A stretch of DNA of 64,000 nt. Source: Diphasiastrum complanatum (taxonomy: Eukaryota; Streptophyta; Lycopodiopsida; Lycopodiales; Lycopodiaceae). Shown piece after piece: positions 14,521 through 31,731 of the stretch. Every line of letters starts with the position of its first letter. The first letter of the stretch is position 1. The stretch covers positions 42,839,502 to 42,903,501 of the forward strand of contig CM055104.1 in NCBI GenBank assembly GCA_029204225.1. Direction: 5' to 3'. The position numbers and the translations under genes are program-made. The notes beneath the pieces are model-generated. The model worked only from the letters and a program-made list of their open reading frames with translations, searched no databases and was not told where the DNA came from.

Positions 14521-15339
14521 CTCTTGACTAGTTCTAAATTGCCACCTTTTCTTTTGTGTTGTTGAAGCCCTTTGAGACCAACCTCTTGATCTTCCTCTTG
14601 ACCATATAATTAATTGAACAAACTTTGTTTTGCAGATCCATTACTTGCTTTTCTAGTATGAAAACCATGAGAACCAATATCCACTTGCATAGCATCATCT
14701 ACACAAAAATATTTTCCAAAACATGTGAGTAAAGCAAAATGAGTCACTTCCAATTGCTTACCTTTCTCTTGATCATCAAAGATGTCAAACATATGAATAT
14801 CTTCAGATCTGAACCTCTGGAAATAATCCCTCTCAAACATATGATCTAGATTTAACAAGATCTCATCAATGCTTGATCTCGATCTTTCACAAAGGTCAGT
14901 CAAAACGATGTCACCAATGTCACCATCATAAATCAAAAGATAGATTCCAAACTTTCCATCCAACATGAAGTAGAGTAGGTGAAGATGAGTATCAAACCTA
15001 ATAAATCCAGCCCTCTTGAGTCCATAAAAAACCTCAATAAGCTCACTAATGATATCTCCCTTGCCCTAAAAAATTGCCTCTCGATTTGCTCCATGTAGTC
15101 TTCTCCAACCAACCTTTTGTCATCTTGATCATGAGTGATCAATTCACAATCATAGAATCCTTTGAGTTGATGAAGAGATGTGAGATCGATGCCTTGGATC
15201 TTCCCAAGAACCAATCTTCCATTTCTCTTTCCTTCATAAGACTCCCTCTTAATGATTGCATCATAAGAAGTAGAAATCTCAAAAACAATAGAAGCCATGA
15301 AAAAAATGATTAGTACCTTCAACATAAGGATGATTGAAG
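14521..15339 (-). other. Element B module, middle portion between inserts A and C
   Basis: The minus strand encodes an ORF with a hydrophobic start (MLKVLIIFFMASIVFEIS, resembling a signal peptide), then LKGFYDCELITHDQDD, a VGEDYMEQIE segment and GKFGIYLLIYDGDIGDIVLTD. Near 14640-14700 it encodes VDDAMQVDIG, which matches the start of the module in A. YMEQ and the IYLLIY..DIVLT stretch weakly recall Copia RT motifs (YMEQPEG; YVDDIVLTG), so the module may derive in part from RT. That is inference only. Confidence 0.55.
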
Positions 15340-15993
15340 TGTGAAAAATTGTCAACTAGTAGTATTTTCCTAACTTGAGATTTTGTAGGCCTATGGCCAA
15401 ATAAAAGTTAGAGATAGGTTCATACATGTATGTAGAGGCCCAAAGTATGTGTACACTACTTTTGAGGTCACATTAATTAGAGGAGGTCGAGTGTGGAGCT
15501 CTTCTATTGGCTCATAATTTGGTGCATTCCTATTTGACCAAATTTCTAGGTATATGGGTGAATCCTATTGGACCCCAATTTTAGCCTATCATAAGACAAG
15601 TGGCCAAGAGGCACTATGGCTGCTATAAATAGCCATCTCCACGAGTATGTACACAATCTCATTTTCATTCTATTGAATGAATGTTATGCTCTTTGAAGAT
15701 CCATCTTCTTCTCTCTCACTTTTTTGTTCATATCTTGCATTCTAGCCACTAGAATTGTGATTTCTTTGTTGCTATGGCTTCACACGTGTGAAATGTAGGT
15801 TGTAGGCTCTGAAGTACGGACAGGGACAGCAAGTTTCTGTTTGTGGAAGCTTATGATCAGATTTTGATGTTTAGTTGATGTTTAGTATGCTTAACATCAC
15901 AATTTCTATCATTTTTTCAATCTAGATGTGCATAACTTCCATGGCCAAGATCTTTATGAAACTTTAGCATCTTTTGGATCTGAGTTTTTCACA
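15340..15993 (+). repeat. 5' LTR of element C
   Basis: 654 bp with TATAAATA at 15624-15631 and the palindrome CACACGTGTG near 15782-15791. Confidence 0.95.
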
Positions 15994-16005
15994 TGGTATC
16001 AGAGC
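15994..16005 (+). other. Primer-binding site of element C
   Basis: TGGTATCAGAGC immediately after the 5' LTR, initiator tRNA-Met type. Confidence 0.95.
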
Positions 16006-16307
16006 ATTAGGCGGCCAAATGTGCAGGTTTTGCCAGATTTAGAAGAGATTTGTGGGCGAGTTTGCTTTTGTAGCATTCCAATCAAGTTTCTAGCTAAAAA
16101 TCTTGTTGATTTATGTGTAGAAATTGGATCTTTGTGATCAAAACATCATTTGTATGCATTTCAATTGAAGTAGGGCGAATTCCCTCTGTACTTATCAGAA
16201 TAAGGAGACAAAAATTGTTTTGGAAAGAGGGAGATGCAAGATCCAACAAGATCCTATTAGTTTTCCATTCTAGCATATAGTTTTTTGATTCAATTTCTTG
16301 CTTCTTC

Positions 16308-19282
16308 ATGTCAAATGAGCTTATCAAAGAGGTTGGTAAGTGCACATCATCTAGTGAAGCTTGGGAAGCCTTGAAGAAGGTTTATGAATCCAAGTCTACT
16401 TCTAGAGTGTTGACTTTAAGAAGGCAAATCTTTTCTTGTATGCAAAAGAAGAGTGAGAATGGACATGCTTTTGTTTTGAGAGTTAAAGCATTGAATGATG
16501 AGTTAGCATGCATTAATGATGGCATAAATAATGAGGAGCTTGTTCAAGTGATTCTCAATGGCTTGTTGGATGATCATGCTAATCTTGTTCAAAGTTATGC
16601 TATCCAAAAATGTTTACCAAGTGTTGGAGACTTGCAAGAGGTCTTGTTGGCTGAAGAATTCAGGTTGCAAGCAAGAGTGGGAGCATCTTCTACATCTCAA
16701 GGAGGAGAAGAGGAGGCAATGTTCTCTAAAGGCAAGTTCAAGGGCAAAGGTAAAAGCAATTGGTCTAAAGGGCAAGACCAAGGTGAGCACTCTACTTTTG
16801 GCAAAAAGAAGGATAGATCTAAGCTAAAATGTTTCTATTGTGGAGTCAAAGGGCATTTTGCTAGTGATTGTTTTAAGAAAAAGAGGGATCAAGGGGAAAA
16901 GCAAACCAATCTAACTATTGATGAGGGTGGGGATGAGCTTCTTTCAAATGATGCTTTTGTTATGTCATCTTGCTTGTTGGCTAATCATGGAGACATTGAT
17001 CCTTGGTGGATTGATAGTGGAGCCACTTCTCATATGACATATCATAAAGAGTATTTTTCATCTTTAATGGCATTTGATGGTGATAGGAAGGTAATCTATA
17101 CCGCAAATGATGGTGAGTGTGCAATCAAGGGGATTGGCACAATTCCTATTTCACTTTCTACAAATAGGAATATAGAATTGAAAGATGTTTTGCTCATTCC
17201 ATCCATTACCAAGAACTTACTTAGTGTAAGCCAAATGCTTGACAAAGGACTCAAAGTTGAGTTTGATGGTGATGCTTGCTTGATCAAAAAGGGGTGTAGT
17301 ATCATTGCAAAAGGGAAAAGGCAAGGGAAATTGTTCAAGCTTGATGCATGTGTTGTTGCTAACCAAGTTGGATGCATGGCAAATGAACAAATGTCAATTC
17401 AAGAGGTATGGCATAAAAGGATGGGACATCTCAACTACAAGGCCTTGGAGGTAATAGCCAAAAAGGAGGTAGTAAGGGGACTTCCCAAGTCTCTTACTTG
17501 CTTGAATCATGTTTGTGAAGAATGTGCTTTGTCTAAATCACATAGATTGCCATATACTAGATCTATATCTAGATCTAAGATGCCTTTTTCTCTCTTGCAT
17601 TCGGATATTCATGGTGTTACTACAATTAGCAATGGAGGTGCTAAGATGTATGTAACTTTCATTGATGATTTTAGTAGATTTTGTTGGGTTTATCTACTAA
17701 AAAGCAAGGATGAGGTGTTTGATGTGTTTGTCAAGTTCAAAGTTGCTATTGAGACTCAATTTACAACCAAAATCAAATGCTTGAGGAGCGACAATGGTGG
17801 TGAATACATTTCTAACAAATTCAAAGCCTTTTGCGATGAGCATGGGATCAAGAGGGAGTACACATGTCCAAGAACACCACAACAAAATGGAGTGGCCGAG
17901 AGGAAGAATAGAACCTTGTGTGAGAGTGCAAAGGCAATGAGATTGAATGCTAATCTTCCTAAACCTTTTTGGAGTGATGCTTTGTTGTGTGCAAATTTCC
18001 TATGCAATAGATGGCCAAGTGTTGTATTGGAAGGAAAAACCCCTTTTGAAGCTTTGTTTGGTACGAAGCCTAATGTCAAGTTTCTAAGAACTTTTGGATG
18101 CATTTGCTACTTCAACATTACTCTTGATGATAGAACTAAGGAGGATCCATCTTCAAGAAAGGGCATTTTTGTTGGTTATAGTGAAGTAAGCAAAGCATAT
18201 AGGATTTATGTTCCTTCAATCAAGAAAGTGTTCACAAGTAGGGATGTCATTTTTGATGAAAGTAACATTCCAAAAGTTGTTTCAAGTGATGATGGTGTTG
18301 TTGCAACTAATGTGCTTGATGACAATGGAGTTGATGACACATTGGATGTGGATGTTGAAGAAGCCTCTTCAAGTCAAATTCCAAGGAGAACTCCAAGGCA
18401 TAAAGTGAAACCCTCAAGGCTCACTTATGATGGCAAAGGTAAGCAAGTGGTGGATGGATCCAACTATGCTTTCCTAACTTCTTTTGATGTACCTTCATGT
18501 GTAGATGAAGCAAGGCAAAAAGAGGAATGGATCCAAGCAATGGATCTTGAGTTTGAAGCACTTATGAAGAACAACACATGGAGATTGGTGGAGCTTCCAA
18601 AGGGCAAAAGTGCAATTGGATGCAAATGGATCTTCAAGGTAAAGACAAATCAAGATGGATCTATCAACAAGTTGAAGGCAAGGTTGGTGGCTAAAGGTTA
18701 TGCTCAAGAGCATGGCATTGACTATGAGGAAACCTTTGCACCCGTGGCAAAGATGGTGAGCATAAGAGTAATCATTTCCCTTGCAACTCTTTATGGATGG
18801 GATCTTTGGCAATTAGACATTTCTAATGCTTTCTTGAATGGTGATCTTGAAGAGGAAGTCTACATGGAGCAACCCGAGAGCTATGTTTCTCATAGCAAGC
18901 CTAATCATGTGTGTTTTCTACAAAAAAGTTTGTATGGTCTTAATCATGCACAAAGGAGATGGTGTGGATCAAGAGGATGATTATGGAGCTTCATTTGCTG
19001 GATTTTTCAGAGAGTCCAATCATCTTTTGTGACAACCTTTCAGCCCAAAGTCTAGCAAGCAATCCGGTTTTCCATGCAAGGAGCAAACATATCAAGGTGG
19101 CTTACCATTTTGTGAGAGAACAAGTGTTGGCAAAAGAGATCAAGCTTGAACATGTCCCATCAAAGGAATGTGTGGCTGATATCTTTACCAAAGCATTGGG
19201 AAAGGACTTATTTTTCAAGCATAGAACAAGTCTTGGTGTACTTTCTAAATCTATGCTAAAACTAGTTGAAGAGGGAGTGTGA
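16308..19282 (+). pseudogene. Element C gag-pol region (gag, protease, integrase, part of RT, end of RNase H)
   Basis: The frame opens within gag (ELIKEVGKCTSSSEAWEALK) and runs through a CCHC knuckle (CFYCGVKGHFASDC), protease DSGATSHMT, pre-integrase VWHKRMGHLNYKALE and integrase core (DDFSRFCW; RSDNGGEY; TPQQNGVAERKNR). It then enters the RT N-terminal half (ARLVAKGYAQEHGIDYEETF; LDISNAFLNGDL; YMEQPE). RNase H C-terminal motifs (IIFCDNLSAQ; ADIFTKALG) end at the 3' LTR. It matches A closely until the linker and then, unlike A, has normal Copia RT. The element is broken by internal shortening. Otherwise the frame is remarkably clean. Confidence 0.9.
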
Positions 19283-19931
19283 AAAATTGTCAACTAGTAG
19301 TATTTTCCTAACTTGAGATTTTGTAGGCCTATGGCCAAATAAAAGTTAGAGATAGGTTCATACATGTATGTAGAGGCCCAAAGTATGTGTACACTACTTT
19401 TGAGGTCACATTAATTAGAGGAGGTCGAGTGTGGAGCTCTTCTATTGGCTCATAATTTGGTGCATTCCTATTTGACCAAATTTCTAGGTATATGGGTGAA
19501 TCCTATTGGACCCCAATTTTAGCCTATCATAAGACAAGTGGCCAAGAGGCACTATGGCTGCTATAAATAGCCATCTCCACGAGTATGTACACAATCTCAT
19601 TTTCATTCTATTGAATGAATGTTATGCTCTTTGAAGATCCATCTTCTTCTCTCTCACTTTTTTGTTCATATCTTGCATTCTAGCCACTAGAATTGTGATT
19701 TCTTTGTTGCTATGGCTTCACACGTGTGAAATGCAGGTTGTAGGCTCTGAAGTACGGACAGGGACAGCAAGTTTCTGTTTGTGGAAGCTTATGATCAGAT
19801 TTTGATGTTTAGTTGATGTTTAGTATGCTTAACATCACAATTTCTATCATTTTTTCAATCTAGATGTGCATAACTTCCATGGCCAAGATCTTTATGAAAC
19901 TTTAGCATCTTTTGGATCTGAGTTTTTCACA
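19278..19931 (+). repeat. 3' LTR of element C
   Basis: 654 bp, differing from the 5' LTR by a single base by eye. Confidence 0.95.
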
Positions 19932-20305: not shown

Positions 20306-20340
20306 CATTAGAGGAGTTCTCAATATCAAAAAGACCCTTT
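20306..20340 (+). repeat. Left terminal inverted repeat of T1
   Basis: Starts CATTAGAGGAGTTCTCAATA. The first 31-32 bases match the inverted right end, and similarity fades after the 'aagacc' block. Immediately inside lies 'aagaaataccatgtagg', shared with the left end of T2. Confidence 0.85.
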
Positions 20341-20935
20341 AAGAAATACCATGTAGGATATAAAAAAAAATATCAAAATAAATAAAACAATATTGTTTAT
20401 TTGCTTGCCCACACCACTCCCAAGGCCTCCCCAACTCCCAATGATCTAACCATAGTGTCTATAGTCACAGTTAAGAACTGTTAACAGTTCGCAGTATAAC
20501 TTGACTAAATCCAAAAATATTTTCTCCATTGGTTACAAAAAGGGCAATATTTTCACTAGATCTAGAATATGACCGCCATCCCCAAATTCGAATCAGGAAA
20601 AATTGCAAAATGTTTACATATGCATTCCTTCCATGAGAATGGAAATATGAGCGCCAACTACCTATTGGAATGAAAAAATGAGCGGCATTTCCAAATTTGA
20701 ATCAAGTATACAAGCATGGAGATTGGATTGATCGTACATAGTATATAATATAATCAAAGATGAGTATTTTGTTTTGCTTCATAGAATCTGGTCATAGTAC
20801 TTTGATGCAACTGATTACTCTATTATTTTTTTGATGATGACATTATATCATCTACATGTGGATATCCCTGTTGATTTGGCATCTTTGCAGAGAAGAGGAG
20901 GCAAAGGAGTTCAAATATCTGCTGAAGATCGTTCT
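20341..20935. other. T1 left interior, no gene seen
   Basis: AT-rich sequence with no convincing coding frame. In T2 the corresponding left end carries transposase remains, so this is probably where T1 lost its transposase. Confidence 0.4.
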
Positions 20936-20962
20936 CGTTACAGGGCATAAGGAAAGAAAAAC

Positions 20963-21460
20963 GTGGATTTGTGGACAGATGGAACATTATATCCACAAGA
21001 TCCAAGCACTTTGACACATCCCACATTCTCTTCAATAACTCATTTAGTTACATGGATATGCAATGGGCATAGTGGATTACTAGGATATTGTGAAAGATTG
21101 CAAAACCATGGAAAACAACTTTATATGAATGAAGTTCACTTTTTAGAAGGTGAGTTAATTCGGATATCCTCTTATTGTCAGAATAGAGATTGTCATCTCC
21201 AAAAGACGTTAGAAGAAAATGAACAACTTAAAAAGAATAATGAATCATTACAGAAGATAGCAATCAATATCAAATCAGAACTAGAGCAAATGCAATCAAT
21301 CTTACAGTCTATTCGTATTGAAAACTTACAATTACTGAAGGATGTGGATTTGGTAAAGAAGAAGGCTGAAAGTAAGAAGCGAAAGCGACAAAGTTGCAAG
21401 GATATTCAAACGCTTTCAAAAGGAGGTTATCGAAATAGAAGGATCCATGCATTCAAGTAA
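20963..21460 (+). CDS. T1 coiled-coil protein, hypothetical
   Basis: The open frame encodes 165 aa. After a WICNGHSGLLGYCERLQNHGK segment, roughly residues 55-140 form a long Glu/Gln/Lys/Leu/Ile-rich stretch with the spacing of a coiled coil. It ends in the basic cluster KKKAESKKRKRQS, a likely nuclear localisation signal. A splice-acceptor-like 'tctttgcag' at about 20882-20891 suggests an upstream exon, so the true start is uncertain. No counterpart was found in T2. It could be a DNA-binding or dimerising accessory protein of the transposon. Function is unknown. Confidence 0.5.
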   Translation: MDLWTDGTLYPQDPSTLTHPTFSSITHLVTWICNGHSGLLGYCERLQNHGKQLYMNEVHFLEGELIRISSYCQNRDCHLQKTLEENEQLKKNNESLQKIAINIKSELEQMQSILQSIRIENLQLLKDVDLVKKKAESKKRKRQSCKDIQTLSKGGYRNRRIHAFK

Positions 21461-21485
21461 GCATATTCTAAATTTTGTAAGTTTT

Positions 21486-22388
21486 TCAATGACATTTGGA
21501 TTTAATTTCAGCTATGGTGATATTCTGATGGTCTGCCTGTCCATCCTCAGCTATATTTGATAAAGTCTTATTCAGACATTCTTCACCGGTCATAAGACCC
21601 TCCTCATCATCAAAATCAATACCAACAACAAGGTCATCTATCTCAAAATCTACAAAGTCGGAGAATTCAAATATTGTGCCCGATAATAAACATAGAACCT
21701 CGTCCTCACGAGAGTAAAAAAATTTACATAAATCAGCAGTAGTAAAATATACATCGTCATCAATATAATATACAGGCAAATTGAAAAGACATTTCGAATC
21801 CTCCATAGATTTGGATTCATCATCAGATTTATTTTGGCCGATGAAAGTATCCTGGAGAACATCAGTATTTAAATCAATGAAGTCACTTTCTTTATTAGGA
21901 GTGTCGATAAGAAAGTGATTGATATCCTTAATGGCTTACTGAACATAGGAGGGTGCAAAAGGAGGGTCAGCAACAGGAAATTCATTATCATCTGGAATCT
22001 GAACTAAAAGAAAAAGTATGAAACCACTCTGATATTCAACCAATTGACATTTCTTGTTGCAATACGGACACATAGAACTACTTTTAAAAAGATCAAACAA
22101 TTTGGTGAACATTCTATCCAGTCTATGTCTAAAAGCTGGGAAGAAATGAACAAGATCAGTATAATGCATGTACTGGAGTTGACCTATGGAGAAAACAGGC
22201 TTGCTAAGTATATTTCTGAATTTGACATAATGTTCATAAAATACGTCAGAATTTGGTTGTACAGTCCTAAAAACATGTAGATATGGCCTGAATAGGCTGT
22301 GGAAGTAGTCCAGATTTTTAGTAATCCCAAATTCACTCAGAAATGAACTCAAGCCTAATTCTCGTGAGGATGATGAGGAAGAGGCCAT
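21486..22388 (-). CDS. T1 conserved reverse gene with CPYC...C motif, unknown family
   Basis: The likely start is MASSSSSSRELGLSSFLSEF at 22388, because homology with T2 begins just after it. The N-terminal part (about 150 aa) contains FGITKNLDYF, an MHYTDLV segment, LDRMFTKLFDLF and MCPYCNKKCQLV, a probable zinc-binding site. The acidic C-terminal part has LCKFFYSREDEVLCLL, the repetitive FSDFVDFEIDDLVVGIDFDD and TGEECLNKTL. A GT-AG intron probably joins the parts near 21835-21940. T2 encodes a clear homologue (36520-35461) with FGITDRLDY, MFTKLHNDFK, CPICNKKCRFV and LDEFLDIIDFDANDLLLGVDD. Conserved between diverged copies, so once functional. Function is unknown. Confidence 0.65.
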
Positions 22389-22400
22389 GGCAGTAGCATG

Positions 22401-23060
22401 AATATCGCACTTGTGCGCACGGGAGAACTGAACCAAAACTAACTATCAAAATGGCGTAGAAGATGGATATGTACGACAGACAGATATAGAATATCGCACT
22501 TGTGCGCGAGTAGGTATACTTGCAAGCAGACCGACAACAATGAGTGCGCACAAAAGCGATATGTCGCAAATTTTGAGAACGCAAAAGGTAAAAAATTATT
22601 CGGTTTCCGTGCCATTTATACTAAAGTTTTGCACGTGTGGTCAACGGGGTTATGACATGTGTCTACTTTCAGTTTGACAACATGCGCAGGCACGTGTGAG
22701 ATGACACCTGCACACGTGTGAAATGACACCTAGACACGTGTCGCGTGTTCATTTGATTGCTCATAAATATGTGTCACTCTCGCATTCGATCATACAAATC
22801 TCACACGTGTAGTGTGACAGAGTGACACGTGTCGCTCTCACATTTGTCCGTACAACTCCCACACATGTGACAGGACCTTCTTGCGTGAACCCCGATATAA
22901 AATCACAAATTTCGATGAATTTTTTTTTACTTTTTTTTTCGCTCCGCATATCGCATTTGTGTGCATCCTTCACAATCAAAATTAATTCTACTACCTTCCA
23001 TGCGCACAGGTCCGATACGTCTTCTTACGTGTCACCCCATATCACACTTGTGTGTCTTTC
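22401..23060. repeat. Recurrent TATCGCxCTTGTGCGC-like motifs in T1
   Basis: Copies occur at about 22402-22419, 22492-22508, 22947-22963 and 23040-23056, with an inverted half at 22555-22570, on both sides of the G-box cluster. T2 has related copies at about 36554-36572, 37162-37182 and 37241-37266. They may be binding sites for a transposon-encoded regulator or a core promoter element. Confidence 0.5.
22614..22902. promoter_or_regulatory. T1 bidirectional promoter with six CACGTG boxes between outward TATA boxes
   Basis: A minus-strand TATA (plus-strand 'atttata' 22614-22620) faces the reverse CPxC gene, and TATAAAA at 22896-22902 faces the histone gene. Between them are CACGTG cores at 22632, 22691, 22713, 22735, 22804 and 22826, several in ACACGTGTG context. 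CACGTG is the plant G-box/ABRE core bound by bZIP and bHLH factors. The layout is repeated in T2 at 36833-37111. That the sites act as a shared promoter is inference. Confidence 0.65.
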
Positions 23061-23215
23061 CTCAAATCTAATCGTTCTCTTTGATATTCGGCTTGCATAG
23101 CTCCGATATAACGTACATTCTGTCCGTACATAGCGGTCCTCTGTGAGTTCTTTATCATCCCTTCCTTCTCATCCTAACCTTCACGCACAAGTCTGCTATC
23201 ACATAGTTCATGCCC

Positions 23216-24945
23216 ATGGATAGGAGAAAGCAAACAAGGAGAGACTTCTTCTCTCCTGGCTCATCCTCATCTCCTGCGGTTGCCATCACACCCCCTGCTA
23301 GACCTAGAATGCGCAACCGCAGTAGGTGGCTCTCTGAGATACGCAAGTATCAGAGGTCAACAGCTCTATTGATCCCAAGAGCTCCATTCTACCATGTTGT
23401 CTGGAACATAACAAGAAATGATCTCGGACATCACGTTAGATTCACACCGAGTGCTCTTCAGTGCCTTCAGGAGGCTGCTGAAGATTATATTAGTCTTTTT
23501 TTTAGGATTCTTTTTTGCTTGCCATCCATACCAAGAGGGCTACCATAATGCCCAAGGATTCTCAGCTTCTGATGAGAATGAGGGATAGGTATTGTAGGTT
23601 ACATGTATCTCAGCCTGTTGCTCCTAGACCAACTCCTGTAGATAGGACTCATCTTCCTACGAAGCGTCCTAGGAAGCAGATAGCCCCCAAGCATGCTCCT
23701 AAGAAAGTGAAGCCTATTCCAGAATCCATTGTAGATAATGTTGTTGTTGATAATGTTGTAAATATAGCTACCTCTGTTTTGGATACTCCTATAATTGTTG
23801 TAGATACTACAGTTTCACCTCCTCCTCCTCCTCCCAATTTCTATACATATATAGATTCGGATGATTATCTTAAATTTGAGAAAGACATATCGGATGCTAT
23901 AGATACAACTGGTACTCCTTTTTGTTTTAGACTAGAAGAACTTGACTTTAGTATTAATTTTAGAGTTCTAGATTGCTTGGATCTCAAAGACAGACGGGCT
24001 TCTATCAATGATCCTATGATAGAGTCCGGGTTGACACTCTTGCAATTTGACATTGCAAGAGATTCATCAAACGAGTTGTTGATGTTGAGTAACTTTCTGC
24101 TCCAGGCCTTCAAGAAGAATAATGACACATTGTCACAGTGTCTGACAAGTGGATTCACACCAGCAAGAAAGTATCTGGTCATTCCTTATCATACCAAGTA
24201 AGATATATTAAGTGCTTCTTCCTGTTTTATGCATTAACATTGACATTTTCAATTTAAATAGTTCTCAGAATTGTCGCTAAAGTACTTTCAATCTTATTTT
24301 GCAGTGAGCACTGGAGTTTAAACCTGATCTCTATTAAGAGATCTATAAATAATGTTATTAAATGTTCTTGTGTCAAGATGAATTCGGCGAGAAATACGCA
24401 TAAGGATGTAGATATATTCATTCCATATCTAAGTAAATATACTCCTACAGACGTTTCCCATTCCGTGGACTGGCAGATCGTCAGCTTGGAAGTAAACTCT
24501 ATCTTTCTTAATAGCATTTTGAAATCAGTATTCTAATGAAATATTTTCAATCTAATTCATTCTGTTTCATAATTGATTTCTTGTGTGCTGAATTATTTTG
24601 CAGTCGCCCCAGCAAAATGATTCATTCAGCTGTGGGTGGTACACATTGTACAATGTCAAGCTTTTTTTTTAGTGGTTCATCCTTCAACAAGATGTTGATA
24701 TTTCTAAGGTAATAAATTCTGTTTATTCTTATTTTGGAATTATGATTAGTTTTCTATTCTGGTGATGTTATTGGCCATTACTAATACATGAATGTTCTAT
24801 TTTGTAGTTTACACTTCCTAAGTACACATCAAGTCAGGTGTACAGATTTAGACAAGAAATTATCCTGAGTATACTGGCTCGGGCAAGGCTTCAATCTCTC
24901 GTTATTGATGATGGTGCAAAGGATGATGTAGTTGTACTAAACTAA
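23216..24945 (+). CDS. T1 histone H3-like protein fused to a Ulp1/C48-type cysteine protease, four exons
   Basis: Exon 1 (23216-24197) begins with an H3-like tail (MDRRKQTRRDF versus MARTKQTARKS) and runs into an H3 fold: LSEIRKYQRSTALLIPRAPF, VRFTPSALQCLQEAAEDYI, then in an overlapping frame LAIHTKRATIMPKDSQLL. A basic and proline-rich linker follows. The protease then runs ARKYLVIPYH, joined across intron 24198-24304 to NEHWSLNLIS (catalytic His). Intron 24492-24603 precedes SPQQNDSFSCGWYTLYNVK (catalytic Gln/Cys). A last exon is 24808-24945. Introns are about 100 bp, GT-AG. Ulp1 enzymes cleave SUMO-type conjugates. Two T-run-associated frame changes suggest decay, sequence error or slippage. 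Confidence 0.75.
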
Positions 24946-25021
24946 GATAAAAAAAAAAAATATAGATAGCATAGAACAAAAATACATGTATAGACTTCAT
25001 AGAAAAATATACATTGATATA

Positions 25022-26155
25022 TCAAATGTTGCTCCACTTTATAAATTTGAAAGCACAAAATACATGTATAGATGCCCAACTTGGGCTAATGCTTATCTCC
25101 ATTCGGTTTGTGTGACCATTTAGTTCAAAGTCTTGATCCAGTGGTAGCCATGTACCTTCAATTTTCTTGTATCTTTGGTAGATAAATGTGAGACTGAGCA
25201 TTTGCTTTTCGATATGATAACGAAAGATCATTGAGGACTTTTTAATCCTACATTCTATGTCATTATTTGTTCTACTATCCCAGCCTTGATCCATGAGATC
25301 TAACAAAGTCTCATTTGATAAATCCTTGAAAACACATAAAGTTGGTGTCCTACGAACACTAGCACTTGAGAAAAAAATCAAGAAATGTATGCAATGAGAT
25401 AAACCAACTTAGGTGAACAATTTTTGAGCCTGTGCTTATCTTCATAGCATTTTTAATATCAATGAGTAGCTTGCATCTCAAGGATTCAGAAACAATGCTG
25501 TCAGGAGTAGGCCACTCATCACTTTGAAAACTAGGCAATGGAATTGCTTCAAGCTTGCCAAAACTTCCATCTGTTTGTGGCATATATAAAGATTCATAAA
25601 TCTTTATATCACAATCTGCAAGTTCCTTTGGACTTCTTCCTCTGTATTGTAGCTTTCCAACATTAGAGTGAATCACGTCTAATATTCCTGCAAGTGATTG
25701 TGTAGGCTCACATTCACTTAGGCATGATGGATATAAATCTGAAAGAAAAAAACAATGTTGAAGCATTTGAATCATAATCTGAAGAGCATCAATAAAGGAA
25801 ATCACGTACGATTGCTGTAGAGTGCATATGTTTTGATATACTTACAATTACATTTTTGATGATCATGAGGATTGATATCATGTACTTTGATTTCTGAATG
25901 CATATATACATGTTGCACTAAGACTTTTGATATCGATTGACCTCCCAGGGTAGTCTTAATCTCCAAAATTTTTGCTTTCCAATAAGATTTGTAAGTCATT
26001 TTTGCTCTTTTCTTTTGTCGAAAATTGCCCTTTGATGATGGATGCAGCAATACCCATGAGTTCTTCGTATAGTTTGTTGGCTTCTACTTATCAGCTTCAT
26101 CTTTCTCATTGTAAAGAATTACATAATCGATTGTAGATCTAGGTCTCCTCGCCAT
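25022..26155 (-). CDS. T1 right-end reverse gene, unknown family, conserved in T2
   Basis: It reads from MARRPRSTIDYVILYNEKDE (ATG at 26155) through NSWVLLHPSSKGNF, SYWKAKILEIKTT, LVQHVYMHSEIKVHDINPHD, an HQKCNCK segment, a splice near 25750-25850, LYPSCLSECEPTQSLAGILDVIH, LQYRGRSPKELADCDIKIYESLY, SEWPTPDSIVSESL-like blocks and FKDLSNETLLDLMDQGWDSR. T2 (39720-38499) has matching NSWVLMHPSS, LVQHVYMYSEI, CKNLSNSLLSELMDEGWDKR and EKQMLSLCFHYQK. A small-residue/aromatic N-terminal domain of the type W..A.I..I...VQHVY recalls chromatin-reader beta-barrels, but I cannot assign it. The frame has at least one interruption. Confidence 0.55.
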
Positions 26156-26579
26156 TGCTATTTTCAAAGCTTGGGCACCAAAAAACTCTCTGATATGTTA
26201 CTTGATTTTAATTTTTCGTATCACATTTAATCTAATGTGAATGCCAATATAGTCACATTTACTGCGTATACCATATTTTATGTAGCTGTATGTACTATAT
26301 TTCTATAACTGTAACTATTATAGTTAGAAAATTTCATTATCTAACCAGCATAGTAAAGTAGATTTAACTTGAGATATTGACGTCGGGCAAATTAGCACGT
26401 GTCGGACAGGAAAAAGAAACCAATGGGATACGTCCATGCTGCCCGGACACAAATTTCAAAGTTTTCTATATTGCATTTTTATTTTTTAATTAATTTGAAC
26501 TACGTTAGGTAGATTTCAAATCTGTGCATTTTGATTGGGCCTGGTGACGGTCAAAACTAAAGAAAAAAAATAAAAGTAT
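26156..26579. other. T1 right interior, no gene seen
   Basis: AT-rich sequence between the start of the right-end reverse gene and the right terminal repeat. It contains one CACGTG near 26397 and would include the promoter of the reverse gene. Confidence 0.4.
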
Positions 26580-26583
26580 CTTA

Positions 26584-26620
26584 ACAAAAGGTCTTTTTGA
26601 TATTGAGAACTCCTCTAATG
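26584..26620 (-). repeat. Right terminal inverted repeat of T1
   Basis: The reverse complement starts CATTAGAGGAGTTCTCAATA, matching the left end over about 32 bases. Confidence 0.85.
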
Positions 26621-26640
26621 TGATGAAGTTAGCTCTTTCC

Positions 26641-27460
26641 TGTGAGAAATTGGCAAAAATCTAGCTTGGTATTTTTTATGATAGAAGTTTGTAAGTGAAT
26701 CTCACATGTGTGGAGGATGTTCCCACGTGTGGAGAATTGTAAAGTAAATCAAAATGTTTGATATAGGGGTCTCATAGAATTTCATAGTCAAGCATTTAGG
26801 TGTAGGATGTTGATAGGGTCAAATTTGGCATAGATGGCAAATTATCCATTTCCACTTGTAATGCCAATATTGAGCCAAAATAGAGCCAAACTTGTGCCAA
26901 TTAGAGTGTAGACAAGTGTCATGCTTTTGTTTGATGAAGCTTAAGAGGTCCAATAGGATTTAGAGGTGGAACCTTGTGAGGTCCAATAGAAAATTGAGGT
27001 GTGCTTGAATATAGTCCAATAGAATTTAGAGGTGCATGGATCAATGGTCCAATAGGATTAAGAGGTGGCAAAGTGTGATCCAATCATAGTTAAGCATAGT
27101 GGTAGCTCATGAATCTATTAGTATCATTGTACTCCTCCTTTTGGATCTAATTGATTTTGAGATTGAGTGGATTTTGAGTGTCATTGAATTTCTAGCTTTC
27201 TCTCTCTACCCGAGAGCTCATGATGGTTTTTCTCTCTCTACCCGAGGAGAGCAGCTTGTTTTTACTTAGAATACTTTTGGAACACTTCCCACACGTGTGA
27301 GTGAGAGTTGGAAGTGATTGAATGCATGTAGTAGTGTGTTTTTGCCATAGAATCAAAGATAGATCTTGAATCTCAATCTAGTCTTGATCTTGGTGCATCT
27401 ACACACCTTAGGAGATCACAAGTACATGTAGTGGACAATCCACACGTGTGAAATTCAACA
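26641..27460 (+). repeat. 5' LTR of element D
   Basis: 820 bp. It contains repeated 'gtccaatagga' phrases (about five between 26950 and 27060), a CT-rich 'ctttctctctctacccgaga' block given twice, and CACACGTGTG palindromes near 27290 and 27451. Confidence 0.95.
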
Positions 27461-27472
27461 TAATATCAGAGC
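27461..27472 (+). other. Primer-binding site of element D (variant)
   Basis: TAATATCAGAGC, two bases different from the standard TGGTATCAGAGC. Confidence 0.85.
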
Positions 27473-28217
27473 CTACCTAAGGTTACCATGCATTTTGATC
27501 CATTTGAGTGAAAACTATTCATCAATCTTGAGCTAGAAATCGTCAAGGCCCATTTTCCTAGCTATCTTGTTCAATTTTGGATCAAAATAGATCAAAAGGA
27601 CATTGATTGGGTCTGACCTGGTACTGTACGGAATCAGGTGCTCAGACACGTGTGAGGAACATCCAATTTCAGTTTGGGAGTTCTCTTTCACGTTTGATCC
27701 AAAAATCTTGCTAGATAGCTTGTTTTGAAGCTATTTTTGTCTAGTTTCTGATGCAATCAGTTTCATTCCATTTGGTTGAGCCAATCAAAAGTTATAAGCT
27801 TTTGAAGAGGGTTAGGTAGGGCACCTAGATTTAGGTGGACACATTTGGTTTGGTCAAGAGATTGCTTGTTTGATCCAAAATCACAGTTGAATGCTTACCA
27901 ATCTCATCTATATGTGATCTAGTCACTGTTTTGAGATCTCAGCCATTTTGCTTCATGCAATATCATTGTATTTGAGTCAAATTTGGTTTCTTAGTGTATT
28001 TCACATGTGATAAGAGTGTTTGATCCTAACTTTTCCCATACTCCATCATTTGATGTGAAGTAGATCTAGTTTTGGAGAGATTGAGATAGCTAGTGAGAAT
28101 CATCTCACAGTTTGTTGCAAGATCTTGCATAGGAGATGGTAGCACACCATTATTGGATCCTATAGTGAGAGAGAAGCAACATTTTTTATTCATCACTTTT
28201 ATTTATCTCCACTTTAC

Positions 28218-28541
28218 ATGACTTCAATGAGTTCATACTTGTTGCAACCAAGTGAGAGATTGTCTACTTCCAATTATTCAATATGGAAGTTGAGGATGGA
28301 GTCCATCTTGATACTCCAAGATGTGATGGACATTGTACTTGGGATTGAGGAGGAGCCTCAAGTCCTTCAAGAAGTACAAAAATACAAGAAGAGAGCTAGG
28401 ATGGCTCTCCACTACATTAAGATGAATGTCTCTAATGATATATTGAGGGAGATTGGTGATTGTTCTACATCCAAGGAAGCTTGGGATTGTCTCCATGATG
28501 GATCTAATCTTGATATCAAAGACTATCTTGATCTTTTTTAG
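28218..28541 (+). pseudogene. Element D gag, N-terminal part
   Basis: The frame starts MTSMSSYLLQPSERLSTSNY and continues with IWKLRMESILILQDVMDIVL and IKMNVSNDILREIGDCSTSK, the standard N-terminal gag of these Copia families. It is the only forward coding remnant of D. Confidence 0.85.
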
Positions 28542-28549
28542 GCTAGTTA

Positions 28550-30590
28550 CTCTCTCAAGGACGTAAGTGTCCACTTTGGATGCTTTACTTAATCTCAAGA
28601 GGAGTTTACAATTTGCCTCAAAACATGTGAAAACATGATTTTCAAAAAAGTGAGTACCAAGCTCAATCTTGTTCTTACTAGAACCAAGAGCATACTTTTG
28701 ACAATACAATATCTTGCTTTCAAAAAGTATTGGAAACACATCTAAGTCAATAATGACAAGAAACATGTCCATACCATAAGCATCATACAAAACTAGTATA
28801 GCTTTTCTTGAACTTTGAGATCCAAAAAATTCAATGAAGCAAGATAGCATTTCAAGCAAAGGAAGAGAAGCATATATGAATGTGTTGTAGTAGATACAAC
28901 ATAAAGATGCCCCTCTTTGCCATGTAAGGTGAGCCATAAAGACTCGGCCATGCATCTTGAAGATCTTCTTGAAATCATATGAAGAAGAAACTCCTCCTCA
29001 CACATTGGCCCCATCATAACTTGAATACCTTCAAAAAGGATAACTTGTGATGCTTCTTGAGAAGCCTTGATCTCGGCCACTTCCAAGATTGAATCTTCAT
29101 GCAATATGACATCTCTATTCACCATCACATTTGAAATAGAGAGTGTAAAGACACTAAAGGCCTCCTTGATGGATGAGTATCCAATCATGATCCATGAGCT
29201 TGGATCATCCTTCCTTCTTGTTTCCAAGGAAATATGTGCAAAGCAAGCACTACCAAGTTCACTAAGGTGATCAACCTTAGGCTTCATCTTGAATAAAACT
29301 TCATATGGTGCTATTCCTTCAAGAGCTCCAATACTCCTCAAAGCTTTGATCTTCAATGAGAATTTCTTCTCAACATGTGCTTTGAATAATAAGGAATAAT
29401 CATACACCATAATACTTGAAGAGAGAAGATATGTGCATCTTGTGTAATCCTCCTCCTTTGAAATATTGGAAATATAAGAAACATCAAGAGAGTTTGCACT
29501 CTCACTTGGATCCAATTTGTAGATGCCTTCAAATCTTGATCCATATGCAAGGATCTCACCATCCTTCTTAATCACACAATTGTCAATATTGAAATTGACA
29601 TCAAAGCCACTATCAAGAAGTTGGCCAACACTTAAGATGTTCTTTGTAAGCTTTGGGACAAAAAGAACATTGTTGAGAAAGAGATCTTTAGAAGAAGCTT
29701 CAAGGGAATAATCCCTACTCCTTCAATATTGCACTCATGCTTACTTGCAAAGTATATGGTCTTCTTGACTCCATCATAAGGCATAATAGATGAAAAAAAG
29801 TGCTTGGAGCCACACATATGTGAAGATGCTCCACTATCAATATACCATGAGTCATCCTTGTTGAAGGTGGAAGAGGAGAAGCTTGATGCCAAAAGAGAGC
29901 CTTCTCCATCACTTGCAATATAGTCTTCTTTCTCATTGGTGATGTTGGCTTGATTGAGTTGATTCTTCTTCTTGAAGCAATTGGTGGCATAATGGCCTTT
30001 CTTGCCACAATAAAAGCACTTGATCATCTTCTTCTTGAGATTTGAATTAGAAGCATGAGAGGTATCCTCCTCCTCTCCATCTTGGTCTTTAGATTTGTCA
30101 TTAGAGAAGTGATGGTGTTGCTTCTTACTCCTCTCTTTGTGCTTGGCAAATAGAACTTTGCCATCATCATGATTGAGTGATAGCTTGTCCATCCTCAAGA
30201 GTTTGTACTCTTGTCTTGATTCTTAAAAAATAAGCACACTTTGAAGGGCCTCCAAAATTGGTAGCTCCTCCTTAATAGCATAGGATTGGACAAGGTTGTC
30301 ATATTCATCTCTCAAGCAATTGAGAATGACTTGGACTAGCTCACTTTGATTGATTGAGTCACCAATACATGCAAGCTCTCTATGAATATCCTTGACTCTC
30401 AAAACATAATTAGATGCACTCCCATCACTCTTTTGACTACTTTGGAATATTTGATTTCTAAGAGTGAGGAGCCTAGAGGTGTTCTTAGCCTCATAGATGG
30501 ACTTATATAGTTCATTGTATGTGGACTAGTCAAGCTAGAAAGCATAATCTTGATAATCATCATTGTTTCACATCTTATGGTCTTGATCTC
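28550..30590 (-). pseudogene. Element D interior on the minus strand: gag end, zinc knuckle, protease, integrase and module-like remains
   Basis: Minus-strand motifs from right to left: gag C-terminal region (30200-30590), CCHC knuckle CFYCGKKGHYATNC (about 30000), protease WYIDSGASSHMC (about 29840), and integrase C-terminal remains with APYEVLFKMKPKVDHL, DPSSWIMIGYSS and MVNRDVIL (about 29090-29340). Near 28560-28600 is SKASKVDTYVLE, matching the A/E module motif SEASQVDTILY. The order is that of a Copia element but opposite in strand to its LTRs. It is a fossil with several breaks. Confidence 0.8.
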
Positions 30591-30911
30591 CATGATCCTT
30601 ATGAGGCTTGGAAGCCTCAGATTTCTCTATTTATGGTGCATCCATCATGCAAGTGGAACTTTCAAGGCAAAGATCATCATCAAGCATGGAGGAAGCCCAT
30701 GATAATAGTGGCATATTGGTGGAGCTCTCTTCAAAGGCATTGGCAAGAGATCTCTACCAAAGAGATCTTATCATGGATATGGTGAGGGTGCTGCTATGAT
30801 GGATCCCTTGGCTGATCTTCACTTCTTATGCATACCAAAGTATCCACTCAAAAAGATTTACAAACTTCTCAAGTGATCTAGTACCTTTCCAAGCTATTTT
30901 TTGAGGAGGAG
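30591..30911 (+). other. Element D, segment before the 3' LTR
   Basis: No RNase H motifs are visible on either strand. A short forward open frame has no recognisable domain. It ends in the purine tract. Confidence 0.4.
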
Positions 30912-31731
30912 TGTGAGAAATTGGCAAAAATCTAGCTTGGTATTTTTTATGATAGAATTTTGTAAGTGAATCTCACATGTGTGGAGGATGTTCCCACGTG
31001 TGGAGAATTGTAAAGTAAATCAAAATGTTTGATATAGGGGTCTCATAGAATTTCATAGTCAAGCATTTAGGTGTAGGATGTTGATAGGGTCAAATTTGGC
31101 ATAGATGGCAAATTATCCATTTCCACTTGTAATGCCAATATTGAGCCAAAATAGAGCCAAACTTGTGCCAATTAGAGTGTAGACAAGTGTCATGCTTTTG
31201 TTTGATGAAGCTTAAGAGGTCCAATAGGATTTAGAGGTGGAACCTTGTGAGGTCCAATAGAAAATTGAGGTGTGCTTGAATATAGTCCAATAGAATTTAG
31301 AGGTGCATGGATCAATGGTCCAATAGGATTAAAAGGTGGCAAAGTGTGATCCAATCATAGTTAAGCATAGTGGTAGCTCATGAATCTATTATTATCATTG
31401 TACTCCTCCTTTTGGATCTAATTGATTTTGAGATTGAGTGGATTTTGAGTGTCATTGAATTTCTAGCTTTCTCTCTCTACCCGAGAGCTCATGATGGTTT
31501 TTCTCTCTCTACCCAAGGAGAGCAGCTTGTTTTTACTTAGAATACTTTTGGAACACTTCCCACACGTGTGAGTGAGAGTTGGAAGTGATTGAATGCATGT
31601 AGTAGTGTGTTTTTGCCATAGAATCAAAGATAGATCTTGAATCTCAATCTAGTCTTGATCTTGGTGCATCTACACACCTTAGGAGATCACAAGTACATGT
31701 AGTGGACAATCCACACGTGTGAAATTCAACA
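30912..31731 (+). repeat. 3' LTR of element D
   Basis: 820 bp, nearly identical to 26641-27460. Confidence 0.95.

Follow-up and report, generated by a model that had tools for sequence, protein, structure and literature searches.

A DNA transposon family of Diphasiastrum complanatum encodes a histone H3 fold and a Ulp1-like protease domain in one gene

The DNA analysed here, called the window throughout, is a stretch of 64,000 nucleotides from the lycopod Diphasiastrum complanatum (assembly GCA_029204225.1, contig CM055104.1, positions 42,839,502 to 42,903,501 of the forward strand). It contains T1, a copy of a DNA transposon family that we name family 1, and inside T1 lies a gene, the H3-C48 gene, that encodes both a histone H3 fold and a C48 (Ulp1-like) protease domain. 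A distant transposon family (family 2), with the same kind of transposase, carries a second, separate kind of H3 gene. Transposons are known to counter silencing by means of enzymes and DNA-binding proteins in their cargo; to our knowledge none brings its own core histone. An initial annotation made from the window alone knew of no such transposon either, and we found no transposon-encoded histone in those parts of the open-access literature that could be searched, a body that leaves most subscription papers outside.

Structure and domains of the H3-C48 gene

We examined 53 records of the gene and left out 18 as too short. The remaining 35 are near full length, and removal of six duplicates from them gave the 29 distinct copies used for the tree and for residue and tail counts. 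The features of the gene in the window copy are as follows.

23216..24945, forward strand: H3-C48 gene, with exons 23216-24197, 24305-24491, 24604-24708 and 24808-24945 and three GT-AG introns
23216..23245, forward strand: N-terminus MDRRKQTRRD, resembling H3 M-ARTKQTAR-K with D in place of K9
23318..23580, forward strand: H3 histone fold, spread over two frames in the window copy
23503..23504, forward strand: one-base frameshift in a run of T inside the histone fold, window copy relative to other gene records
23581..24160, forward strand: basic/proline-rich linker containing KRPRKQTAPKRAPK, which resembles H3 residues 14-27
24160..24870, forward strand: C48 (Ulp1-like) domain, exons 1-4, borders approximate; its motifs are H in NDHW/NEHW and Q and C in SPQQNDSFSCGW, with Asn at the expected catalytic Asp
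24670..24672, forward strand: TAG, an in-frame stop codon within exon 3 of the window copy; the codon reads GAG in 33 of the 35 gene records

The two domains are found together in the copy L011, which has an open frame. Its spliced product, a single protein of 473 residues, matches the histone profile PF00125 over residues 24-123 (E=1e-26; 94 bits against a cut-off of 26.4) and the Peptidase_C48 profile PF02902 over residues 319-446 (E 1.7e-10; 41.5 bits against a cut-off of 20.7). Thus, an H3 fold and a C48 domain are encoded by one forward gene, as the initial annotation had proposed. In searches of solved structures with a composite query, the best 60 of 176 matching PDB sequences are named H3 or centromeric Cnp1, with one called only 'Histone domain-containing protein', and the best relatives of the C48 part are Ulp1-like proteases (6dg4, 7.1e-4; 1euv, 1.3e-3).

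The window copy itself is damaged. A profile search gave a PF00125 match with E 8.1e-15 for the open reading frame 23210-23548, and the frame 23506-24201 continues that match at profile positions 99-122 with E 0.00096, which is under the curated cut-off. The H3 fold is therefore present yet split, because one base is missing in the T-run. The extra base is present in 31 of the 35 near-full-length records and absent from the window copy, L066, L067 and L069. As three other records share the frameshift, it is either a slippage hotspot or an inherited break. The profile check for both domains that had been suggested with the annotation thus succeeds in L011; in the window it finds the histone, with no PF02902 match for the two stretches covering C48 exons 1 and 2.

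The predicted introns (24198-24304, 24492-24603 and 24709-24807) are borne out by the records, 23 of 35 of which, the window copy among them, keep all six GT/AG splice dinucleotides. The start of the gene has to be moved: a methionine stands at the proposed position, 23210, in 14 of 35 records, and the conserved methionine is at 23216, where it occurs in 28 of the 29 distinct copies.

Copies of the gene across the genome

A genome search with the 98-residue H3 part as query gave 5,232 candidates at first look and scored 150 of them. At least 150 genomic places match, namely the window and 149 others at 88-96% identity, and the worst of these matches has an E value of 3.0e-50. The H3-C48 gene is therefore a repeated gene and more than a chance reading, and the search for further family members that the annotation had called for is answered positively. 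The whole spliced frame and the six splice dinucleotides are intact in nine of the 35 near-full-length records, which correspond to seven distinct places (one place was fetched twice and there is one near-identical pair). In that pair, L012 and L013, Tyr replaces the catalytic Cys. We considered whether a polyprotein might cleave itself and discarded the idea, as Gly-Gly is absent from residues 120-320 in the nine open records.

We also searched 5.8 billion protein sequences for homologs of the fusion. From 5,001 scored candidates came 13 matches, none of which covers more than 25% of the query. All seven matches that were read have an H3 or H3-like domain, and two of them are tandem-H3 gene models. 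A query made of the linker and C48 parts gave 529 candidates and no match. Hence we found no relative of the fusion outside this genome, with a search that misses relatives sharing few words.

Conserved residues and selection in family 1

The family 1 fold shares 51% identity with canonical plant H3 and 46% with Arabidopsis CENH3, and its loop 1 has an additional residue. Among the 29 distinct copies, R83, K115 and T118 are kept in all 29, H113 and R116 in 28 and D123 in 25 (positions in H3 numbering). Of the C48 catalytic residues, His is kept in 27 copies, Gln in 28 and Cys in 26.

At the N-terminus, MDRRKQTRRD is present in 22 of the 29 copies; all 29 have K at the position equivalent to K4, and 28 have D at that equivalent to K9. 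The initial annotation had called this region an H3 N-tail. The ten-residue likeness is there, but it is not significant alone, since 166 of 2000 shuffles score as well. The canonical tail ARTKQTARKS is absent from both families, which have MDRRKQTRRDFF (family 1) and ARTKQTARDP (family 2) instead. The likeness of the linker segment KRPRKQTAPKRAPK to the H3 tail, a post hoc comparison, has a score reached by 12 of 2000 shuffles. This segment lies at about 23650-23710, 3' of the fold, as if a piece of the tail sat behind the fold.

We assessed selection by branch-wise counts on a tree of the 29 copies, comparing internal with terminal branches. On internal branches the C48 domain has 19 synonymous and 16 non-synonymous changes (omega 0.33, P 0.0012), and the whole gene has an omega of 0.57 (P 0.003). 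For the gene as a whole, terminal branches look nearly neutral (omega 0.85). These counts supersede both a pairwise dN/dS estimate (histone fold 0.45, C48 0.40) and a shared-against-singleton count, because the latter two mixed neutral decay with selection in copies chosen by H3 similarity.

A distant transposon family with an H3 gene of its own

With canonical H3 as query, the genome yielded 13 intact host-like genes at 96-98% identity, 10 exon-like pieces and at least 127 places at 51-57%. Five of these distant places were read individually. In four of them the fold is 45-47% identical to that of family 1; in the fifth, L106, the identity is 41% over a longer alignment. The fold at L107 matches PF00125 with E 4.1e-30 and 105 bits.

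The T1 transposase has 15 homologs (P0014-P0028), and P0014 used as query gave 51 scored transposase places. At least 14 of the 51 have a family 2-like H3 at most 8 kb away, 13 of the 14 in convergent orientation, against an expected 0.06 pairs; when tail places are added, the number with an H3 fold or tail in convergent orientation rises to at least 19 of the 51. The transposases of families 1 and 2 are linked through their common match to P0014 and not by direct comparison. These pairings show a second, distant transposon family that has the same kind of transposase and carries its own, separate kind of H3 gene. The family 2 loci are L104, L105-L108, L113 and L114 (G000: C17, C156, C12, C8, C4), and the tail was read in C17 and C156 only.

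In C156 an open frame of 417 amino acids, stop to stop, has MSEEMARTKQTARD near its start and an H3 fold followed by the stop at its end; tail and fold are separated by a stretch of about 300 amino acids with a high content of Ser/Arg, Gln and Pro. In C17 the start is identical in DNA to that of C156, followed by a four-base shift. The tail near the start, M-ARTKQTAR-D, is exactly H3 residues 1-8 with Asp in place of lysine 9. MARTKQTARD is encoded at 102 genomic places (0 for the reversed control) and the host-type MARTKQTARK at 26. At 29 of the 100 listed MARTKQTARD places, one of the listed family 2-like folds follows in the same orientation, 0.86-1.23 kb further downstream. Two more tail lineages, at L115 (C23:7188880-7189380) and L116 (C1:21316400-21316900), share MARTKQTARDPRI and have a different sequence behind it.

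Transposon T1 and its transposase

The H3-C48 gene had been placed inside a DNA transposon by the initial annotation, and it is indeed surrounded by terminal inverted repeats (TIRs) of 35 nt. The other features of the element are listed here.

20306..26620, forward strand: DNA transposon copy T1 of family 1, internally deleted, termini CATTA...TAATG
20306..20340, forward strand: left TIR, 35 nt, 97% complementary to the right one
20951..21460, forward strand: transposase gene remnant, N-terminal part, coiled-coil-like by eye; catalytic part deleted here
21486..22442, reverse strand: gene of no recognisable family (MASSSSSSRELGLSSF..., CPYCNKKC), at least two exons by eye
21524..21527: deletion junction, about 2.6 kb missing relative to copy L040 (locus 174 to 2811)
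25022..26150, reverse strand: gene of no recognisable family (MARRPRSTIDF...), without about 0.36 kb at 25087
26586..26620, reverse strand: right TIR, 35 nt

The TIR pattern, with at most two mismatches allowed, has 1,987 matches in the 1.74-Gb genome and 0 for the reversed control. At the right border, homology ends at 26620-26623 in seven of the eight longer copies compared. Three fuller copies with both TIRs measure 8.4, 8.7 and 9.3 kb, and open frames in fuller copies give the gene order transposase (forward), CPYCNKKC gene (reverse), H3-C48 gene (forward) and second unclassified gene (reverse). The N-terminal transposase frame of T1 is also found in the fuller copy C2, upstream of a DDE-like region. 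Two segments that L040 contains are missing from the window copy, one of about 2.6 kb at 21524 and one of about 0.36 kb at 25087. Because of these losses, the frameshift and the TAG in exon 3, T1 is a dead copy, with internal deletions, of a TIR DNA transposon that is present in high copy number. Target duplications were sought at ten end pairs, the last four of them joined by distance only: a duplication is seen at one pair as TCA (3 bp) and at another as TCTG (4 bp), and the other eight pairs lack any of at least 2 bp.

The minus-strand gene at 21486..22442 has no Pfam match above cut-off, and the best Pfam match for pieces of the one at 25022..26150 is Tn7_TnsA-like_N at 0.0063, under its cut-off. 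For the transposase, no Pfam family, MURA-type transposases included, scored above cut-off with the transposase pieces or the 15 homologs. A structure model of a homologous transposase has its best fold matches in RAG1/Transib, with other families still compatible. Two features of a DDE transposon of RAG, Transib or CACTA-Mirage-Chapaev (CMC) type are found, namely a transposase of RNase H-like fold that has two Asp and one Glu, and TIRs. The T1 transposase belongs to an unnamed DDE family that, by the modelled fold of its homolog, resembles RAG1/Transib. No transposase relatives were found in IMG/VR viral contigs. L109 (C1:98252744) and L110 (C1:98321713) match P0014 residues 9-758 in one stretch, with stops, and the fetched loci gave no H3 match; they are perhaps a third type of element.

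Beside a copy on C11, positions 8745-8864 of L036 carry the CATTAGAGGAGTTTTGC motif and represent a diverged relative of the element end, which suggests that further related or non-autonomous families may exist. Retrotransposons, Copia-like by eye and with terminal direct repeats of at least 300 bp, flank T1 on both sides (15338-19575 and 26641-31211). The window contains the word ACACGTGTGA 13 times against 0.02 expected, upstream of the H3 gene and around the retrotransposons (22712-22810, 15780-15791, 19718-19729, 27291-27655 and 31562-31722), and is perhaps a shared promoter motif. An Rfam search gave no match.

Comparison with known systems

Vandal elements, which are Mutator-like, have a Ulp1 domain in their KIU genes in Arabidopsis and other plants, and VANC proteins counter the silencing of related elements (PMC13317346). 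As in T1, a plant DNA transposon here has a Ulp1 domain beside its transposase. T1 differs in its RAG1/Transib-like homolog model and its 35-nt TIRs, and no histone is named in the passages of PMC13317346 that were consulted.

With RAG1/Transib/CMC-type DDE elements and Plavaka, T1 appears to share a homologous transposase fold, and it shares short termini that start with CA. Its CATTA...TAATG ends set it apart from CACTA (EnSpm) elements proper, whose termini are CACTA/G. They also differ from the PlavakaB termini, which are CATCA..TGATG with target-site duplications of 2-3 bp (PMC12730594).

Some fungal transposons carry TET/JBP, and others SET genes (PMC12730594). Transposons with these or other chromatin enzymes resemble T1 in having cargo that may be able to undo silencing, but theirs consists of mark-editing enzymes and that of T1 of a nucleosome building block. 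Histones are also encoded by viruses (PMC9145170). In these, as in T1, a mobile genome has its own core histone, but they are viruses and not cut-and-paste transposons. We know of no SUMO-protease fusion among viral histones.

Possible functions of the transposon H3

Plants keep transposons silent by means of H3K9 methylation. The explanation that we favour, tentatively and from sequence comparisons, is that the H3 gene has a function in these transposons, namely to let them escape silencing. The transposon H3 would pair with H4 through its conserved H3 surfaces and would be deposited into, or compete at, chromatin on the element. Its tail, with the K4 region kept, would be unable to take H3K9 methylation because Asp stands at position 9. 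In family 1 the fusion would also bring its C48 domain to this chromatin, where it would remove SUMO from silencing proteins. Entry of the H3 into chromatin, or its use as a targeting or tethering module together with SUMO removal, had been suggested in the initial annotation. In favour of the proposal are the presence of both domains in one protein, the nine records with an intact spliced frame, the conserved residues of the fold, the constraint on C48 and on the whole gene along internal branches, the family 2 H3 beside related transposases, and the tails of the two families. The weakest steps of this proposal are the protease activity and the use of the tail. An evolutionary scenario built on it, in which we place less confidence, is that a RAG-like transposon lineage captured a canonical H3 and turned it into its own variant, which retains the K4 end and is not subject to H3K9 methylation; nucleosomes containing it might then mark the chromatin of the element as unsilenceable, and one branch might have added a SUMO protease.

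Several observations weigh against the proposal. All 29 distinct copies have Asn at the position, picked by eye, where the C48 catalytic Asp would most likely be, and protease activity is uncertain because the catalytic Asp was not found; papain-like enzymes use Asn at the corresponding position. On internal branches the histone fold has 4 synonymous, 13 non-synonymous and 2 stop-making changes, giving an omega of 1.26 that is not significant, from changes too few to judge selection, and the omega of 0.72 that the fold has on terminal branches was obtained with copies selected for H3 similarity. Purifying selection within family 1, which the initial annotation had suggested looking for in both domains, is thus shown for C48 and not for the histone fold (internal-branch omega 0.33 versus 1.26), and the branch-wise count weakens the claim of selection on the histone. 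The MARTKQTARD search demanded the exact peptide, which makes it unfit as a measure of selection. Past residue 8, as judged by eye, the family 2 protein is unlike H3 until the fold, and for this reason the loss of K9 could be a by-product of the loss of the tail. The family 2 frame could also begin four residues further upstream (MSEEMARTK...), which would hide the tail end. Finally, 2.26 kb of sequence was read at each of two loci of family 2, and no C48 match was present in either.

Other roles for the H3 gene can be envisaged. The H3 domain or the ARTKQTAR-like tail might bind chaperones, readers of the H3K4 region or nucleosomes and so guide the transposase to chosen chromatin, in the manner of the chromodomains of some Gypsy integrases or of the RAG2 PHD finger, which reads H3K4me3 for RAG1. 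However, H3 and transposase are on separate genes in both families, so that a contact between them is unsupported, and we consider such tethering unlikely. Alternatively, the fusion could act outside nucleosomes as a decoy or dominant-negative protein that soaks up H4 and H3 chaperones and weakens silencing or replication-coupled assembly near the element. The conservation of the H3 fold and of its H4-facing residues fits this idea, as would the hindrance to ordinary nucleosome packing that a bulky C-terminal C48 domain may cause; histones with large C-terminal fusions such as GFP do enter nucleosomes, however, and we judge a decoy improbable.

A host histone gene and a protease gene might instead have been captured and carried along without use. 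This would agree with the 26 broken records among the 35 near full length, the near-neutral terminal branches of the whole gene, the lack of constraint on the histone fold on internal branches and the missing C48 catalytic Asp. It agrees less well with the C48 omega on internal branches, with the open, high-scoring H3 fold that both families keep although about half of the fold differs, and with the retention of MARTKQTARD in three tail lineages (found by an exact-peptide search, to which lineages lacking it are invisible), and we regard a mere passenger as similarly improbable. The H3 part could also be a captured CENH3 that takes the element or the protease to centromeres, a reading to which we give very little weight. 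Loop 1 exceeds that of canonical H3 by one residue, and AAEDY, KDF and LLIP are common to family 1 and Arabidopsis CENH3; yet family 1 is closer in identity to canonical H3 than to that CENH3, the loop 1 insertion is absent from family 2 and the family 2 tail is a canonical H3 tail. A small tree with two reference sequences likewise places the transposon sequences against the rest at 65, with CENH3 not joined to them; a host CENH3 was not found in this analysis.

If the scenario of a captured H3 turned into a transposon variant is true, these elements would be selfish elements that evade silencing by replacing nucleosomes and not by editing marks. Should the transposon histones enter chromatin, they would offer a direct test of whether removal of the K9 site suffices to free an element from heterochromatin, and the exact ARTKQTAR with Asp at position 9 would reduce such a test to one substitution in a model plant.
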